DNA of 64,000 bases from Paludisphaera borealis. GTDB taxonomy: Bacteria; Planctomycetota; Planctomycetia; Isosphaerales; Isosphaeraceae. Shown in pieces: positions 3,071 through 36,154 of this stretch. The translations under genes were made by a program, and so were the position numbers. The DNA lies in contig NZ_CP019082.1 of the NCBI RefSeq assembly GCF_001956985.1, positions 6,262,001 through 6,326,000 on the forward strand, written 5' to 3'. The notes beneath the pieces are model-generated. The model ran no database searches. It had not been told where the DNA came from and saw nothing but the letters and a program-made list of their open reading frames with translations. The first letter of the stretch is position 1. Each line of letters opens with the position of its first letter.

Positions 3071-3149
3071 ATACAAGCCCGAAGCGCCAGCGAGTGCATC
3101 CCCCGCCGGCCATCCGTACCATGCACTCGCCGGCGCTTCGGGCTTGTAT
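3071..3149. repeat. Long hairpin repeat, copy 1 (between convergent genes)
   Basis: Two 29-base arms, 3071-3099 and 3121-3149, are inverted copies with a single mismatch (core GCCCGAAGCGCC / GGCGCTTCGGGC) around a 21-base loop. The element starts three bases after the diadenylate cyclase stop and ends 12 bases before the DUF1641 stop on the other strand, so it is well placed to end transcription from both sides. It is one of five related copies in this window (others near 10.8, 13.2, 17.9 and 36.1 kb). Confidence 0.9.
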
Positions 3150-9049: not shown

Positions 9050-10687
9050 CTATTTGCCCTTGTTGAGTTGATCGTAGTACGAGCGGATGTGCTTCTCGAC
9101 GCTCTTGGGGATGCGCTGGTTCGAGAGCGCGTCGGCGGCCGAGCCGGTGGCGGCTTCGAGTTCCCCCTGGATGTCGATCTTGCTCTCGCCCTTGACGGTC
9201 TTGCTGGGGTCCGTGAAGCCCTGGAAGATCGCCTTCCCCTTGCGGATCTGCTGCTGGACCTTGGTGGTGTAGAGCGAGGTCTTGTCGGCCGCCTCGGCGC
9301 GATCGCCGGCGCCCCGGCCGCGACTGCCGCCGTTGTTGCTGTTGCCGCGTCGGTCGCTGCCGGGGCCCATGCCGCCCATGCTGTCGCCGAGCTGGTTCAT
9401 GGCGTCCATGTTCATCCCATCCTTGGCGTCCATGACGTCGGCCATCGCGCCGTCGAGGGCTTCCATCTCCTCAAGCTGCTTGGCCATGTCGGCGACTTGC
9501 TTTTCGGACATCCCGAGCGCCTCGGCGGCCTTCTTCGCGTCGCCTTTCTCCAGGGCCTTCTGAGCCTCGCCGAGCTTGCCGGCGAGCTGCTCAAGCTGCT
9601 TGAGGTTCTTGGCCTGCTGCTTGAGCTTCTCCAACTCGCGCTCGTGCTGCTCCTTGCTCAGGCCGCCGTTCTTGAGGGCTTCGTCGAGTTGCTTCTTGCG
9701 CTGGTCCATATTGGCCAGGTCGTTGAGCTTCTTGGCCATCTCGCCAAGCTGTTCCTTGAGGGCTTTCTTCTCGTTGGGCGTCAGCTTGTCGGACTTCATC
9801 TTCTCCTGCAACTCTTTGATCTGCTCGGCGGCCTTCTTGAAGTCGCCCCGGGCGAGTTCCTTGGCGAGCTGGTCGGCGGGGCCTTTTTCGCCCATCTCCT
9901 TGAGCTGCTGAAGCTGCTTGCTCACCTGCTCGGGACTGCCGAGCTGTTTCTGGCGATCCTTGAGGGCGTCGCTGAGCTTGTTCATCTCGACCAGGAGCTT
10001 GTCCTTCTGAGACGGCGGGGCCTTGCCCAGCTCTTCCGACTTTTTCTCGATCTGGGCCAGCAGCTTCTCGGCCTCGGGGAACTTCTCCTTGTCGATCTTC
10101 TCGCGCTGGCTGGCGATCTTCTTGGTCAACGCCTCGGACTTCTTGGCGATCGCCGCGGGGTCGAGCTTCGCCGTCGTCCGGGCCTGGACCGTCGAAGTGA
10201 CCCAGGAGGGGACGAATAGAATCGCCACTGCGAGCGCGGCCGGGATCGCCATGACCCACGCACGGCGCGGCAGCCTTGGCCCGAACGCCGAGGTCACGTC
10301 GACCTGCTCCAGCTTGCGGATCGCGTCGGCGATCAGCGCCCGGCCCACGGGCGATTCGCGGAGGTCGTCCGGCAGGGTCAACGCCGTGCTGATCCGCTCG
10401 TTGAGCTTGTACGCCCGGTCGACGGCCACCGCCGCGTCGAGCCGGCTCGGACCGCTGAAAACCGCGACGAGGGCCGCGATCACGAACCCCACCCCGGCCG
10501 CCACGGCGAACGGAACCCATTCCGCGCAGGGCAGAGGGCGGTTGAGGACCTTGAACACCCCGAGAACGACCGCCACGACCAGGAGCGCCCCGGTCCACGA
10601 CCAGACCCCGGCGGTCACGAACCGCTGGAACCGCAACCGCCTGAAAACCCGAGCCACGGGCTTTTCCAGCTCTCGCAACGTGACCAT
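9050..10687 (-). CDS. Membrane protein with a very long charged coiled coil (DUF4175-like N-terminus)
   Basis: Predicted length is 545 aa from ATG 10687, preceded by GGGGGA; the ORF runs 14 codons further upstream but without support. The first ~60 residues hold two membrane segments (WTGALLVVAVVLGVFKVL and AVAAGVGFVIAALVAVF), then a region (LDAAVAVDRAYKLNERISTALTL) like the head of DUF4175-type proteins, and a third hydrophobic segment near residue 150. About 250 residues of Lys/Glu/Leu/Gln-rich coiled coil follow, then a Met/Gly/Asn-rich linker and a conserved-looking tail ending in HIRSYYDQLNKGK. Homologues of this layout usually sit near MoxR/VWA operons, and one lies 7 kb downstream here. 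A structural envelope role is inferred only. Confidence 0.75.
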   Translation of the reverse strand: MVTLRELEKPVARVFRRLRFQRFVTAGVWSWTGALLVVAVVLGVFKVLNRPLPCAEWVPFAVAAGVGFVIAALVAVFSGPSRLDAAVAVDRAYKLNERISTALTLPDDLRESPVGRALIADAIRKLEQVDVTSAFGPRLPRRAWVMAIPAALAVAILFVPSWVTSTVQARTTAKLDPAAIAKKSEALTKKIASQREKIDKEKFPEAEKLLAQIEKKSEELGKAPPSQKDKLLVEMNKLSDALKDRQKQLGSPEQVSKQLQQLKEMGEKGPADQLAKELARGDFKKAAEQIKELQEKMKSDKLTPNEKKALKEQLGEMAKKLNDLANMDQRKKQLDEALKNGGLSKEQHERELEKLKQQAKNLKQLEQLAGKLGEAQKALEKGDAKKAAEALGMSEKQVADMAKQLEEMEALDGAMADVMDAKDGMNMDAMNQLGDSMGGMGPGSDRRGNSNNGGSRGRGAGDRAEAADKTSLYTTKVQQQIRKGKAIFQGFTDPSKTVKGESKIDIQGELEAATGSAADALSNQRIPKSVEKHIRSYYDQLNKGK

Positions 10688-10777
10688 GTCATCCCCCGGC
10701 GCTCTTGTAGAAAAAGACCTCGAAGACAAGCTCCGACGAACGTAGTACCGATCAGTCTACGCCGTCGCGAGCCTCAA

Positions 10778-10880
10778 ATACAAGCCCGAAGCGCAAGCGA
10801 GTGAATTGTTTTGAAATGACGGCCGCCGCCGCGCGCGACGAGGTCCGGGAGATTCACTCGCTGGCGCTTCGGGCTCGTAT
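10778..10880. repeat. Long hairpin repeat, copy 2, with CATTTTGCATG tail
   Basis: Inverted arms 10778-10806 and 10852-10880 carry the family core (AAGCCCGAAGCGCAAGCGAG and CTCGCTGGCGCTTCGGGC) around a 45-base loop. About 26 bases further on is the tail motif CCCATTTTGCATGAGGCCGG (10907-10926). The element lies in the divergent gap upstream of the first ECF sigma factor gene; the second sigma factor gene has the equivalent element in the same place. Confidence 0.9.
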
Positions 10881-10987
10881 TCGGAGGCCCCCCGGCGGGC
10901 GCGATCCCCATTTTGCATGAGGCCGGGGGGCGCCACGGCGTCATGATGGTTTGTAATCGATGGTCCAATAGAAATTCACGCTCGAAC

Positions 10988-11064
10988 TTCCAGAAATCCA
11001 GATTGGGAGGCGGTCTTGGTGCAGTAATCTCTGGAAAGGGGTCGAGAACAGGGAGCAGTCCGCC
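10988..11064 (+). promoter_or_regulatory. Conserved upstream block of ECF sigma factor A
   Basis: The ~77 bases before the start codon are closely matched by 13344-13418 before the second ECF gene: AATCCAGATTGGG, CTTGGTGCAGTAA and GGGGTCGAG occur in the same order and spacing. Conservation outside the coding sequence suggests a shared promoter, possibly one recognised by the sigma factors themselves. The duplication could also be recent enough to explain it. Confidence 0.55.
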
Positions 11065-13074
11065 ATGATTCGGTCACAACAAACCTCGGTCGGCAGGGAG
11101 CTGGAGCGTCTGCTCCGCGACGGAATTCGGCCGGCGCTCAGCGATGCGCGGCTGCTCGACCGCTACCTCGTCGACCACGACGAGTCGGCCTTCGAGACCC
11201 TCGTCGAGCGGCACGGGCCCATGGTCGTGTCGCTCTGTCGCCGCTACCTTCGCGATCCGCGCGACGTCGAGGACGCCTTCCAGGCGACGTTCTTGATCCT
11301 CGTCCGCAAGGGATCGAGCCTGCGTGACGCGGCTTCGCTTTCAAGCTGGCTGTACGGCGTGGCTTATCGCGTCGCGGCGCGGGCGCGGGCTGACGTGATG
11401 AAGCGACGTGCCCGCGAGGGCGAGCCGGACGGCCTGCCGCAAGCCCTTGCACCGCTCGCGCAGCCGCCCGACGACTCGCTCGAAACCCTCGACGCCGAGC
11501 TGAGCCGGCTTCCGGAGAAGTACCGCGCGCCGCTGATTCTCTGTTACCTCGAAGGTCGGACGCACGAGCAGGCCGCCGCCGAGCTGGGCTGGCCGGTCGG
11601 CACGGTCCGCAGCCGGATGGCCAAAGCCCGCTCGATTCTGGAGACGCGATTGACCCGTCGCGGACTGGACGCCTCGGCCTGCCTGGCGGTTTTGCGGCCG
11701 GAATTCTTCCTCACCTCCACGGTCCTTCCCTCGCTGACGTCCATCTCCACCACGTGGCCGGCGACGGCCCTTGCTCAAGGAGTTCTCGCTGCGATGCTGA
11801 TCTCTCAATTGAAATGGATCGGAGTCGGAACGACGGCCGTCGGCCTCCTCGCCGCGTCGGTCGGCATGGGCGCCCTGGCGGTCAACACGCCGGCCAGCCT
11901 CGAAGACGTTCCCAGCAGGCCCACTCAGGCGGCGAAGCCGACACCGGTACCGACGCCGTCTCCCCGGCCGATTCCTCGGCCTCAGCCTAGACCGAACGAC
12001 GACGTGCAGGCCCGGCTCGCGGAGATGGAGCAGAAGATCGATCGGCTGATGGAGCTGCTTCACCGCATGGAAGAGCGTTCCTTGACCACCGCCGGCAGGC
12101 TCCCGGGTCCGTTCGAAGCTGAGCAGGACAGCCCCGAGCCGCCCCGCGCATTACATCCCCCGGCCCGGGCCCTGCCGCCCCCCGAACCCGCTTCTCCTCC
12201 CGGCGAGGCTCCCTCACGCCCTGATGCACCGCCAGGCATTCCCGAGGACGCGCCCCACCCGGACGCGCCGCCCCGTGCCGAGGCTCCCCCGGTCGAGGTC
12301 CCGGAGCCTCCCTCGCCCCCACTCCCCCCCGGCGAGCCGCCGGCCGAGTCGGCCCCGAGTCCTCTTAACACCACCTCGGAAACGCCGATCGCCGTGGCGT
12401 CGCCGCCCCGGACCGTTCCGCCCCCGGCCGCGGTCGACCCGCTCGCATCGACCGCGAGTCTGCCCGTCCTGCCGCCATCGCCGGCTCAACCCTCGCCGTA
12501 CCCCGAGACGGCCCCATTACCTGCTAGCGTCGAGGTCCGACCATTCTCGCCAATGGCTCTGGCCGACACGAACACCGGGGGGATCGGGACGTCGAGAACG
12601 ATGGTCGATCTCGTGCTTGCAAGACGCGAGCGCGGCGGCGTTCGTGAAATCGAGGCGCTTCTTCAGAACCTGCATAAGCGACAGCAGCGCAACGACGAGC
12701 TGAGGGCGCAACGCGTCATTTCCGAGGCCGATTCCATCGTTCCAACCGAACTCGCCCGAATCCTCGTGGCGCAGCTCAGAGAGCTCGAGGACGAGTTCGA
12801 GTTCGATGAGCAGTACATGAAGAATCTGGAACAATCGACCGCGGAAGGCAGGCTAGAGGTCGAGAAACTATTGAGGAGTATGAACGAGGTCGAGGGCGCG
12901 AGATCAAAGGGTAGAATCGAGGAAAAGATTCATCGACTGAATCAAGCCACGGATCGGCTGGAGAACGAACATCGTACGAGATCGCGCGAGTTCGAGATGA
13001 ACAAGTCTCGACAAAAGAATGTCCGCCGACTGATCGAATGGGCCGAGGAGCATTTCAAGGAGCTTAAGATCTGA
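11065..13074 (+). CDS. ECF sigma factor with membrane-anchored C-terminal extension (copy A)
   Basis: Predicted length is 669 aa, more than three times a plain ECF factor. Region 2 (about residues 40-112, with [16 protein letters not shown]) and region 4 (about 142-195, with [16 protein letters not shown] and [12 protein letters not shown]) are complete, so promoter recognition should be intact. A membrane segment follows at about 252-274 ([23 protein letters not shown]). Beyond it lies a ~200-residue Pro/Ala/Glu-rich linker and a ~130-residue coiled coil ending in WAEEHFKEL. The layout suggests a membrane-tethered sigma factor whose far domain senses or is clipped; this is inference. No separate anti-sigma gene is adjacent. 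It is a tandem paralogue of the next gene, sharing also the upstream DNA. Confidence 0.85.
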
Positions 13075-13098
13075 ACGTTGAGGCACCTCAAGTTCGCC

Positions 13099-13114
13099 TA
13101 ACCCGTCTGGGTTA
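13099..13114 (+). terminator. Short hairpin after ECF sigma factor A
   Basis: TAACCC and GGGTTA flank a four-base loop 25 bases after the stop codon. The stem is perfect but has no following T run, so termination is only possible. Confidence 0.3.
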
Positions 13115-13125
13115 CCTTCATAGAT

Positions 13126-13252
13126 TGCCATGAAAATAGTCGCGCGAGGGCATGCACTGGTTCGTCCCAAGGCTATTTTCATGGCAGCCCGAAGCGCCAG
13201 CGAGGGGATGGCCTCGGAGACTTGAAAACACTCCCTCGCTTGCGCTTCGGGC
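13126..13252. repeat. Long hairpin repeat, copy 3, nested beside a second inverted repeat
   Basis: A perfect 14-base inverted pair, TGCCATGAAAATAG (13126-13139) and CTATTTTCATGGCA (13173-13186), is followed directly by the family hairpin with arms GCCCGAAGCGCCAGCGAGGG (13187-13206) and its partner around 13233-13252. The tail motif CCCATTCTCATGAGGTCGGG lies at 13288-13307. The first pair contains the same CATGAAAAT core as the tail, in the opposite direction, so this copy seems to have the tail motif on both sides. Confidence 0.85.
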
Positions 13253-13343
13253 TCGTATTGAGAGGCCGTTCGCGGCACGACCCAGTTCCCATTCTCATGA
13301 GGTCGGGAACCCCAAGCTGGGGCATGACGATTCGCCGAGATCT

Positions 13344-13418
13344 TTCCAAAATCCAGATTGGGCGGCCGCCTTGGTGCAGTAACCTCGAAGTGGGGTCGAG
13401 CACGAGGAGCCGCCAGAC
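13344..13418 (+). promoter_or_regulatory. Conserved upstream block of ECF sigma factor B
   Basis: Matches the block before sigma factor A (AATCCAGATTGGG, CTTGGTGCAGTAA, GGGGTCGAG in the same order). It ends with CGAGGAGCCGCCAGAC, which provides a GAGGAG ribosome site before the ATG at 13419. Confidence 0.55.
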
Positions 13419-15263
13419 ATGATTCGGACGCGACAGACGACGATCGGAAGGGATCTGGAACGCCTGCTGCGAGACGGCGTCAGGCCGGCGCGAGGCGATG
13501 CGTACTTGCTCGACCGCTATCTCGGCGAGCGCGACGAGGCGGCTTTCGAGACGCTCGTCGAGCGGCACGGACCGATGGTGTTGTCGCTCTGCCGCCGCTA
13601 CCTCCGCGATCCGCGCGACGTCGAGGACGCGTTTCAGGCGACGTTCTTGATCCTCGTCCGAAAAGGGCCCGGACTGCGCGACAAGTCGTCGCTTTCAAGC
13701 TGGCTGTATGGCGTGGCGTACCGCGTCGCGGTGCGGTCCCGGTCCAACCTGTTGAAGCGTCGGGCGCGCGAAGTCCAGACCGACGCGATTCTCCAGGCCC
13801 CCGCGCGGACCACGAATCCGCCCGACGACTCGGTGGAGACGCTCGACGCCGAGCTGAGCCGGCTGCCGGAGAAGTATCGTGCTCCGATGATTCTCTGTTA
13901 TCTCGAAGGTCGGACGCACGAGCAGGCCGCCGCCGAGCTGGGCTGGCCGGTCGGCACAGTCCGCAGCCGCATGGCCAAAGCCCGCGCAATCCTCGCTCGC
14001 CGGCTCTCGCGACTCGGACTCGATGCACCTGCGAGCCTCGCGTTGTCGCGGCCGGATCTCCTTGTCGAAACGCTCTCCACCACGGTTCCTGCCTCACTCG
14101 TTCAAGCGACCTCGGAGGTCGCTGGCCGGTTCGTCGGCATCGCGGCGCGGGGCACCGGCGGGGCGGCTTCGGTCACGTCCATCTCCACCACATGGCCGGC
14201 GACGGCCCTTGCTCAAGGAGTTCTCACTGCGATGCTGATCTCCCAGTTGAAATGGATTGGACTCGGGACGACCGCCCTCGGCCTCCTCGCCGCGACGGCC
14301 GGCATGGGCGCCTGGGCGGTGACCCCGCCGTCCAAACTAGAAGGCGATCCCAACCCCGTCCAGGAATCGAAACCGGCCGAGGCGAAACCGGCGCCCGCAC
14401 AGACGTTACCGGGTGCTCAGCCGCAGACGCGGCCCCAAGTTGTTGACGTGGAAGCGCGACTCGCTGAGATGGACCGCAAGATGGATCGGCTCATGGAGCG
14501 GTTTGAGCGGATGATGACTCCCGCCGCGCCTCAGTCGCCGGCCGCGGCCGCGCCGCCGGTCGAGCCGGCGGGCACCGAGGCCCCGCCGCCCGCCTCGCCC
14601 AGGCCTCGCGTCCGCGCTCGCGGAGCCGAGCCGTCCCCGGCGTTCCCTTTAAATCCCAGGTCCGACGATGAGAGAAGGAATCCGTCACCGACTTTCAAGG
14701 ACCCAACCGACGGCGGACTCCGAGAGATCGAGGCTCGCCTGATGAACGCACTCAATCGCCATACTCTCACGAAGGCGCTTTTTGAGAGGGGGCAGCTTTC
14801 TCAGTTGGAGAATTTCGCCCCCCTGGAAGAATCCCGCGTGCTGATCGCTCGTCTCAAGGGAATAGAGGATCAACTGACGGGGGAACTGGAGTTCGTCGAG
14901 ACGATCGAGTCGCCCAGCGTGGGAGCGGAGGTCCTGGAAGCGCAAAGCCGTCAGCAGGATGCGAGACTCGCTGTTGAACGATATCAAGCACTTGCCAAGC
15001 AACACTCCACCTTCAAGCCCGCGTTAGCCGATGCCGAAATGGGGCTGCGAGTCGCGTCTTTCGAGTTGTTCGTCAAGAAAAAGGAACTGGAAAGGTGCAA
15101 ATTGCAGGAGGGCCTGCTCCGAACTCGCCTGAAGCAGGCCCAACGCATCCTGGACTGGGCCAAGAGCCACTTCAAGGAGCTTGGCAGCCTGGACGGTCCA
15201 GCTTTCGATCAGCCCGCTCCAGGGGTGCCGATCGTTGCTCCGCCGCCGCCCTCAGCCCGCTGA
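13419..15263 (+). CDS. ECF sigma factor with membrane-anchored C-terminal extension (copy B)
   Basis: Predicted length is 614 aa. Regions 2 and 4 are nearly the same as in copy A ([37 protein letters not shown]), which shows a tandem duplication. The protein differs after region 4: about 25 extra residues precede the membrane segment (WIGLGTTALGLLAATAGMG), the proline-rich linker is shorter, and the coiled coil diverges but ends with the same pattern (ILDWAKSHFKEL). The DNA-binding parts are thus kept while the outer parts diverge, which suggests the same promoters read in response to different signals. The gene ends 12 bases inside the convergent hydrolase gene. Both paralogues are preceded by the same regulatory block and hairpin. 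Confidence 0.85.
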   Translation: MIRTRQTTIGRDLERLLRDGVRPARGDAYLLDRYLGERDEAAFETLVERHGPMVLSLCRRYLRDPRDVEDAFQATFLILVRKGPGLRDKSSLSSWLYGVAYRVAVRSRSNLLKRRAREVQTDAILQAPARTTNPPDDSVETLDAELSRLPEKYRAPMILCYLEGRTHEQAAAELGWPVGTVRSRMAKARAILARRLSRLGLDAPASLALSRPDLLVETLSTTVPASLVQATSEVAGRFVGIAARGTGGAASVTSISTTWPATALAQGVLTAMLISQLKWIGLGTTALGLLAATAGMGAWAVTPPSKLEGDPNPVQESKPAEAKPAPAQTLPGAQPQTRPQVVDVEARLAEMDRKMDRLMERFERMMTPAAPQSPAAAAPPVEPAGTEAPPPASPRPRVRARGAEPSPAFPLNPRSDDERRNPSPTFKDPTDGGLREIEARLMNALNRHTLTKALFERGQLSQLENFAPLEESRVLIARLKGIEDQLTGELEFVETIESPSVGAEVLEAQSRQQDARLAVERYQALAKQHSTFKPALADAEMGLRVASFELFVKKKELERCKLQEGLLRTRLKQAQRILDWAKSHFKELGSLDGPAFDQPAPGVPIVAPPPPSAR

Positions 15264-15815
15264 TCCCGACTTGATCAGGCCGCTGATCGCCTTGAATTCG
15301 GGGCGGTCGGCGGTCTCGCACCATTCGAAGAGGACGGCTTCGGTGGTGGAGATGGTCGCGCCGGCGTTTTCGAGGCGGCGCAGCGCGAACTTCTGGTCGG
15401 AGCTGCTCCGGGAGGCGACGGCGTCGGCAGGGATCTGGACGCGGAAGCCGAGATCGAGCAGTTCCAGAGCCGTCTGGGCGACGCAGACGTGCGCCTCGAT
15501 GCCCGCAAGGGTGATGTGGCGGATGTGGCGGCCGTAAAGCTGTTCGAGGATCTGGGGCACTGCGCAGCACTGGAACGCGAGCTTCGACGGTCGGTCCGGG
15601 ATCAATTCGGCGATCGCCGGGATCGTGGCGCCGAGGCCCTTGGGGTACTGCTCGGTGGCTGACGCCGGGATGTTCAGCAGCTTCGCCCCGTGGATCAGCC
15701 GGACGGCGTTGGCCACGAGGCGTTCACGGTCGGGAATCGCCGCGATCAGCTTTTCCTGGACGTCGATCACCAGCAACGCGCCTCGGGGCGCGGTCAGTCG
15801 TTGGGTTGCGCGCAT
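15252..15815 (-). CDS. Isochorismatase-like cysteine hydrolase
   Basis: Predicted length is 187 aa from ATG 15815, which is preceded by GGAGGAAAAGAACG; the longer reading from 15887 is not needed. The family triad is visible: Asp in ALLVIDVQEKL, Lys in PSKLAF, and the nucleophile Cys in GIEAHVCVAQTAL, which also has the cis-peptide context typical of this fold. Relatives include YcaC-type hydrolases and nicotinamidases; substrate cannot be told. The protein is cytoplasmic, with no signal sequence. It converges on the second ECF sigma factor gene with a 12-base overlap and is divergent from the PAS/GAF/receiver gene. Confidence 0.85.
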   Translation of the reverse strand: MRATQRLTAPRGALLVIDVQEKLIAAIPDRERLVANAVRLIHGAKLLNIPASATEQYPKGLGATIPAIAELIPDRPSKLAFQCCAVPQILEQLYGRHIRHITLAGIEAHVCVAQTALELLDLGFRVQIPADAVASRSSSDQKFALRRLENAGATISTTEAVLFEWCETADRPEFKAISGLIKSGSAG

Positions 15816-16036
15816 CGTTCTTTTCCTCCATTCGGGTCGGCCCGTTCCGGGCGGTTCGCCCTGCAAAATCTGGGCCGTCGTCTCCATCCGTCGTCCCTAT
15901 TATAAGGGCTGCTCCTTGCCGGCGGGAGATCGGCGGACTACGATGTTTTTTGGAATGCCGTCGACCCGGACTTTCGCGGCTCCCCCTGCCTGTCGTGCTC
16001 GATCCGAATTCGTTTAGCCTGGACTGGGTTACCCAC

Positions 16037-17820: not shown

Positions 17821-17940
17821 CCGGCCTCATGAAAATGGGCTCGCGGTCGGCAGGGTCCGAGTACAAGCCCGAAGCGCCAGCGAGTGCGTTTCCAGTCGGC
17901 CATTCGAATCCATGCACTCGCCGGCGATTCGGGCTTGTAC
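17821..17940. repeat. Long hairpin repeat, copy 4, with reversed CATTTTCATG tail
   Basis: Arms 17861-17887 and 17914-17940 (core CAAGCCCGAAGCGCC and its partner with one mismatch) flank a 26-base loop. The tail motif is on the left side and reversed: CCGGCCTCATGAAAATGGG at 17821-17839. The element separates two convergent genes and ends two bases before the stop codon of the BatA-like gene, a terminator-like position matching copy 1. Confidence 0.9.
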
Positions 17941-36071: not shown

Positions 36072-36154
36072 CGAATACAAGCTCGAAGCGCCAGCGAGTG
36101 GATGCCTCCAATGGCCCGACGGAGATTCACTCGCTGGCGCTTCGAGCTTGTATT
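36072..36154. repeat. Long hairpin repeat, copy 5, perfect and with compensatory change
   Basis: Arms 36072-36099 and 36127-36154 are perfect inverted copies (28 bases) around a 27-base loop. Where other copies have GCCCGAAG paired with CTTCGGGC, this one has GCTCGAAG paired with CTTCGAGC: a C-to-T change on one arm is matched by G-to-A on the other, keeping the pair. The tail motif CCCTTTTCATGGGGTGGGG follows at 36178-36196. It sits in the gap between the fusion gene (minus) and the PEP-CTERM gene (plus). Confidence 0.9.

Follow-up and report, generated by a model that had tools for sequence, protein, structure and literature searches.

Analysing a window of 64,000 nucleotides from Paludisphaera borealis (G000:C1:6262001-6326000, in a genome of 7,651,896 bases on 3 contigs), we found two adjacent open reading frames on the + strand, ECF1 (669 amino acids) and ECF2 (614 amino acids), both encoding sigma factors of the extracytoplasmic function (ECF) type with a long C-terminal part. 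With a probability of roughly three in four, one ancestral sigma gene was duplicated here in tandem together with its own promoter, the sigma half and the promoter being kept while the C-terminal half diverged, so that the two genes would now form an autoregulated and cross-activating pair. The homology of the copies, the synteny of the locus, the single copies in congeners, as well as the conservation and the specificity of a promoter-like element are established by our analysis. Both proteins score above the cut-off of NCBIfam TIGR02937, ECF2 matches ECF sigma factors of the PDB by sequence and by fold, and regions 2 and 4 are the sole sigma domains recognised by Pfam in the pair, as is characteristic of group IV (ECF) sigma factors. 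No model other than those for sigma domains rose above the cut-off in Pfam scans of ECF1 and ECF2 or in scans of the C-terminal parts and three homologues.

The two copies are connected by direct repeats of 300 nucleotides at 81% (11038/13392) and 184 nucleotides at 87% (11731/14169), and further upstream by one of 48 nucleotides at 83% (10984/13339), with a start-to-start spacing of 2354-2438. The original prediction, made from the letters of this DNA, had described the promoter-binding domains as near-identical. This overstates the likeness of the sigma region as a whole (162 of 205 residues identical), yet it is accurate for residues 157-189 with the region-4 helix-turn-helix, where 1 of 33 residues differs, and for a 27-residue stretch of sigma-2, which is identical. 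The following membrane stretch shares 42 of 48 residues (88%) between the copies, compared with 31-45% to other proteins, and each protein has one hydropathy peak for a predicted membrane helix (1.64 in ECF1). The predicted divergence of the C-terminal part was confirmed: only 37 of 144 residues (26%) are identical there, and identity to congener proteins is 19-29%. Between sigma region 4 and the hydrophobic stretch, 25 residues of ECF2 (228-252) have no counterpart in ECF1, a gap that the original prediction did not mention; at least the first ten or so of them are retained by all ten full-length congener proteins, and the proline-rich linker of ECF1 is longer than that of ECF2. Cysteines C58 and C160 are present in both proteins and in 27 of the 31 rows compared, the four rows without both including the truncated protein of congener G004. 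A structure model of ECF2, built with 5 sequences and having a mean predicted local distance difference test score (pLDDT) of 60.6, presents the C-terminus as long helices (434-584, ten-residue blocks at pLDDT 69-94); in Foldseek this helical C-terminus resembles HlyD and further helical proteins at an E of about 0.01 or worse, a likeness given no weight as evidence.

The origin of the pair can be followed in five congeners (G001-G005), in which the flanking genes were located. The isochorismatase gene was found in all five, and a 67-70% identical homologue of the divergent neighbour lies beside the ECF gene in four. Between the same flanking genes, G001, G002 and G003 contain one full-length sigma homologue, and in G004 (L043, 7761-8162) the syntenic sigma gene consists of the first 133 residues only; in G005, neither a sigma match at E 1e-15 nor the divergent neighbour was found in the 18 kb around the isochorismatase gene. 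None of the congener regions examined holds two adjacent sigma copies. Orthologues keeping both copies behind unrelated upstream DNA were not encountered, as congeners have one copy or none and four carry a related promoter. The interval of G003 (L042) is syntenic except for one additional frame of some 750 codons, presumably of the pectate-lyase/GH28 type, which separates the sigma gene from the isochorismatase gene.

For comparison, we used a subgroup of 13 genes, that is the two of the window, ten full-length congener genes and the truncated G004syn, chosen not by promoter but by the similarity of their proteins (E 1e-80 or better), with G004syn as an addition. The genome itself gave 52 matching stretches, of which 20 were fetched as loci, 18 of these being the other paralogues compared; a contig search of named relatives gave 79 loci, of which 3 (L053-L055) were used further. 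In the 12-row trees, from which G004syn (133 amino acids) was left out, ECF1 and ECF2 are sisters at 100/100, both for the sigma region as protein and as DNA and for the sigma plus membrane part. At fourfold-degenerate sites, the copies are identical in 66 of 99 cases, whereas either copy compared with eight of the ten full-length congener homologues reaches 0.39-0.56. Based on this sisterhood and on silent identity above the congener values, the tandem duplication is, as far as the sequences tell, specific to the lineage of the window and younger than its split from the five congeners, though not recent.

A common block upstream of both genes, likewise anticipated by the original prediction, is present not only as the 48-nucleotide repeat, but also as CTTGGTGCAGTAA (at 11015 and 13370), AATCCAGATTGGG (at 10995 and 13350) and GGGGTCGAG (at 11038 and 13392). 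Allowing up to 2 mismatches, the window has no match to CTTGGTGCAGTAA besides these two, against an expectation of 0.20 (two matches arose in 1 of 100 shuffles), and CCAGATTGGGNGGCNNNCTTGGTGCAGTAA at up to 3 mismatches has two matches in 45 family genomes (own included), both at this pair, so the promoter block is not common background; its scarcity elsewhere is explained by the diverged form that congener genes carry. All 13 subgroup genes have a GAAATC-like stretch, then a GATTGG-like or GACCTG-like word and then GCAGTA(A/G)C, the last word varying to GCATTAAC in G002syn and to GCAGTAAT in ECF1. The last two words align without gaps in 13 of 13 genes, and the last word begins 23-44 bases 5' of the start codon (start codons of congener genes were set by script). 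In a leave-one-out test, the 13 subgroup genes score 29.4-47.6 on a matrix of the element, against -29.4 to 1.0 for the genome's 18 other sigma paralogues. Compared with 2000 random slices of the window, p19 (1.0) exceeds the 99% level (-3.6) and p03, p05, p12, p15 and p18 exceed the 95% level (-10.2), and a weak general promoter likeness among the other paralogues is therefore possible; the highest slice scored 49.2, which we take to be one over the promoters themselves.

Upstream of p10, p18 and p19 (L010, L018 and L019), an A-tract, a GGAAC word and a TA-containing, -10-like word stand nearly in the register of the subgroup promoter, which hints at autoregulation of many such sigma genes. 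GGAAC is the usual -35 word of ECF sigma factors; here it is shifted by one or two bases against GATTG, in a register chosen by the matrix. Another promoter reading made by eye, with GAAATC as -35 and CTCGTT as -10, was held less likely, because GGAAC overlaps the place of GATTG in these three paralogues.

The element is specific to the subgroup at high stringency: GATTGG-N14-GCAGTAACC at up to 1 mismatch has 7 sites in six Paludisphaera genomes, all of them before subgroup genes (control 0), and the remaining 6 subgroup genes carry a more diverged form. When 2 mismatches were allowed and the pattern was shortened by one base (GATTGG-N14-GCAGTAAC), the six genomes gave 64 matches, among them the sigma sites, and the control gave 67, so there is no excess; seven of the 64 are one identical sequence that occurs in three of the six genomes and is presumably rRNA-like. 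At this threshold the sequences show no regulon that extends past the sigma genes, and the earlier idea that the pair reads one regulon from two inputs is unsupported beyond the two sigma promoters.

As to which sigma factor reads the element, its first word is ACCT in five of five genes of one clade (group b, supported at 97/95, 96/95 and 82/91 in three trees) and ATTG in seven of the eight other subgroup genes, which may not form a clade, the eighth (G005a) having ATCG. Four sigma positions (101, 125, 167 and 178) split the two groups without overlap among the 12 full-length proteins, and two of them, 167 and 178, fall in the helix-turn-helix of region 4, by which the -35 element is read; of the four, only 125 differs between ECF1 and ECF2. 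That region-4 positions and the first word change together is only suggestive, as it may reflect a single evolutionary event. Positive autoregulation is common among group IV sigma factors, though not universal. According to a review, regulons could be predicted for nearly 70% of known ECF sigma factors, and about 55% of them are autoregulated (PMC8103513).

Taken together, autoregulation and cross-activation within the pair seem to be the best reading of these sequences; along with the membrane topology and the activation step, they are what we infer. An ancestral sigma gene, present once and equipped with its own promoter, would have been duplicated in tandem after the lineage had parted from the five sampled congeners, and the promoter-reading half and the promoter would have stayed alike in both copies, while the predicted membrane-anchored C-terminal half diverged, leaving copy 1 without the 25 residues and with the longer linker. 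By analogy with IutY and SCO4117, ECF sigma factors that have membrane extensions (PMC8999054), the C-terminal half probably holds each sigma protein inactive at the membrane until a signal from outside leads to release by freeing or reshaping the sigma part, which would then transcribe from GATTGG-N14-GCAGTAAC. Because both copies keep one promoter class, each sigma factor should drive both genes, so that activation of either would raise both, by auto- as well as cross-activation. Separately, copies of a genome-wide repeat would have settled in both upstream gaps.

This repeat, a hairpin with a CATTTTGCATG-type tail, had been counted as part of the duplicated unit in the original prediction, which can be upheld for gene and promoter, duplicated in a lineage-specific manner, but not for hairpin and tail. 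Both of the latter are common background: the half-site AGCCCGAAGCGCNAGCGAG has 415 matches in the genome at up to 1 mismatch (216 + 199; control 0), 272 of them exact, the tail CCCATTN{2,3}CATGAGGNCGG occurs at 36 places (control 0), and the two local copies are of different subtypes. As a short palindrome in many copies, the hairpin may be of the repetitive extragenic palindrome (REP) type, of which a GTAG/CGTC tag and a linked RAYT transposase are further hallmarks, and five hairpins of the family (10 half-sites at up to 2 mismatches) lie in the window alone; a role as locus-specific regulator was rejected, the repeat being dispersed genome-wide. No exact half-site occurs in G001-G005, and 9 of the remaining 39 family genomes have 1 to 40 copies, which, given its abundance here, suggests a lineage-specific burst. 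Half-sites (up to 3 mismatches) were found within 230 bases in 13 of 13 tail loci displayed of the 20 fetched, the first three of the 13 being one and the same place. Six half-sites at G000:C1:47373-47592 stand in direct orientation with starts 37-41 bases apart, unlike the usual hairpin pairs. At 13126-13186, a perfect 14-base inverted repeat, TGCCATGAAAATAG...CTATTTTCATGGCA, extends into the second hairpin, and a similar TGAAAATA stretch adjoins some other repeat copies.

One could still argue that the whole unit was duplicated at once, hairpin included, and that the hairpins were later changed by conversion with other genomic copies, since both lie just 5' of the promoter, in the same order and with a tail. 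We regard this as improbable. Aligned with each other, the two repeat copies agree in 111 of 138 positions with a score of 46.0, which is exceeded by all 18 outside elements (nine per copy, picked for similarity), with scores of up to 108 for copy 2 (L170) and 100.5 for copy 1 (L160). Over about 150 bases, copy 2 shares 86% identity with elements at C1:2083973 and C1:434323 (40 of 245 candidates scored), and copy 1 is closest to one at C1:7288118 (40 of 348 candidates scored). Their tails are of different form as well, copy 1 running on as ...GGCGTCATGATGGTTTGTAATC and copy 2 as ...CCCCAAGCTGGGGCATGACGATTCG, and both forms also occur at other places. Furthermore, the number of half-sites makes independent insertion easy, and at up to 2 mismatches none was found in the 12 congener regions examined, the only one lying in a 13th region, locus L045 of the window's own genome. 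As each local copy is closer to copies elsewhere than to the other, co-duplication is not supported, and the two hairpins are best read as separate insertions.

Several observations weigh against a tandem duplication of gene and promoter within this lineage and against the working proposed for it. In an initial tree of sigma residues that included six distant paralogues, the relationship of the two copies was not resolved, and in the C-terminal tree they are united at no more than 84/87. At fourfold sites the membrane stretch shows higher identity (31 of 37) than the sigma part, and because of this patch partial gene conversion may have taken place in the membrane stretch. ECF2 has a hydropathy peak of no more than 1.39, and the model gives most of that stretch a pLDDT <50. 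Finally, G004 retains the promoter-like element intact before its sigma gene cut to 133 amino acids. Some of these points would agree with a pair older than the genus, in which gene conversion keeps the promoters and sigma halves alike and the C-termini show the true age: the copies are no more alike in the C-terminal part than either is to congener proteins, and the membrane stretch stands out by its identity between the copies, also at silent sites. However, no examined congener region has two adjacent copies, even the C-terminal tree favours the pair, and C-termini of such sigma proteins evolve fast as a rule (pairwise mean identity among the other proteins compared 29%), and we therefore give this history little credence. 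The retained element of G004 would also make sense if another sigma factor or a repressor, and not ECF1 and ECF2, recognised the block. This seems rather unlikely, though less so than an old pair, as the block at up to 1 mismatch occurs, in the six genomes, only before subgroup genes and as the ACCT/ATTG split goes along with group-separating positions in the region-4 helix-turn-helix, which is suggestive only.

The tandem arrangement of ECF1 and ECF2 has a parallel in the same genome, a second tandem pair of long sigma genes (L045, C1:3153151 and 3155772). Between these two, identity is 81-92% in the sigma and membrane parts, falls to 32% and 43% in the C-terminal stretches that follow and is 67% in the far C-terminus, and both copies carry GAAATCGCGTATCC-N15-CGCAGTAC, with 31 of 42 positions identical and equal spacing. 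No half-site of the repeat at up to 2 mismatches lies between these copies, the one of L045 being situated downstream at 9674. By its sequence, the second pair shows the same pattern of alike promoters and a diverged middle C-terminal part. Tentatively, and as a possibility that we would not favour at present, tethered sigma factors of planctomycetes might multiply by a repeatable route, in which promoter and gene are copied in tandem, the sigma half is frozen and the sensing half rapidly replaced; this would give cross-wired pairs, both genes responding to either input, until later changes in region 4 and the -35 word (ATTG to ACCT) provide one copy with a private promoter.

Table 1. Features of the ECF1/ECF2 locus (window positions)
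Feature	Position	Strand	Description
ECF1 promoter-like element	10993..11030	+	GAAATCC A-rich part, GATTGG (11001-11006), GCAGTAAT (11021-11028)
ECF2 promoter-like element	13348..13385	+	AAAATCC, GATTGG (13356-13361), GCAGTAAC (13376-13383)
ECF1	11065..13074	+	Open reading frame; sigma-70 regions 2 and 4 with a predicted membrane helix, a long Pro-rich linker and a C-terminal part
ECF1 domains			Pfam Sigma70_r2 (46-108), Sigma70_r4_2 (140-190); hydropathy peak 1.64 at residue 255
ECF2	13419..15263	+	Open reading frame; sigma-70 regions 2 and 4 with a predicted membrane helix and a helical C-terminus
ECF2 domains			Pfam Sigma70_r2 (46-107), Sigma70_r4_2 (142-190); hydropathy peak 1.39 at residue 280
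Divergent neighbour	9050..10729	-	Marks ancestral 5' flank; no Pfam family above cut-off
Isochorismatase-domain gene	15252..15887	-	Pfam PF00857; marks ancestral 3' flank; converges on ECF2
Dispersed repeat, subtype A	10777..10960	.	Hairpin 10777-10881 and tail 10907 to ~10960; stem folded; not counted in duplicated unit
Dispersed repeat, subtype B	13184..13334	.	Hairpin 13184-13259 and tail 13288 to ~13334; read as independent copy
Window hairpins	3076-3144, 10783-10875, 13186-13253, 17866-17935, 36080-36148		Stems of all five folded

Many ECF sigma factors of planctomycetes have C-terminal parts that still lack an explanation. With one promoter class in a pair, another tandem pair in the same genome and two promoter classes among the congener homologues, the steps from duplication to separate specificity become directly testable, and a predicted target sequence is now available for this sigma subgroup. 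The result on the repeat should at the same time be a warning against taking shared hairpins in the P. borealis genome as regulatory.

Among known systems, IutY of Pseudomonas putida (ECF243) and SCO4117 of Streptomyces coelicolor (ECF52) are sigma factors fused to a C-terminal membrane part, as predicted here, and SCO4117 also has a proline-rich outer region (PMC8999054). Unlike proteins of this type, ECF1 and ECF2 contain no zinc-finger anti-sigma domain above the Pfam cut-off, and the zinc-finger (ZAS-like) domain that is a trait of ECF48, ECF52 and ECF53, groups with a fused membrane anti-sigma part, a transmembrane helix in the extension and activation by regulated proteolysis, gave no Pfam match in them. 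With ECF57 they share the two conserved cysteines that have been proposed to join sigma 2 and sigma 4 (58 and 160 here), but not the WD40-like repeats prevalent in its C-terminal extension, of which ECF1 and ECF2 have none at E 0.1. The dispersed repeat resembles REP-type palindromes, which are short, of high copy number and also reported from Planctomycetes (PMC3733652), and differs from them in being a longer composite of hairpin and tail. Paralogous ECF sigma factors within one genome and with some common targets are exemplified by EcfG1 and EcfG2 of Rhizobium etli in the account given by PMC8103513; these reside on chromosome and plasmid (PMC8103513), whereas ECF1 and ECF2 stand in tandem, and the only shared targets seen are their own promoters.

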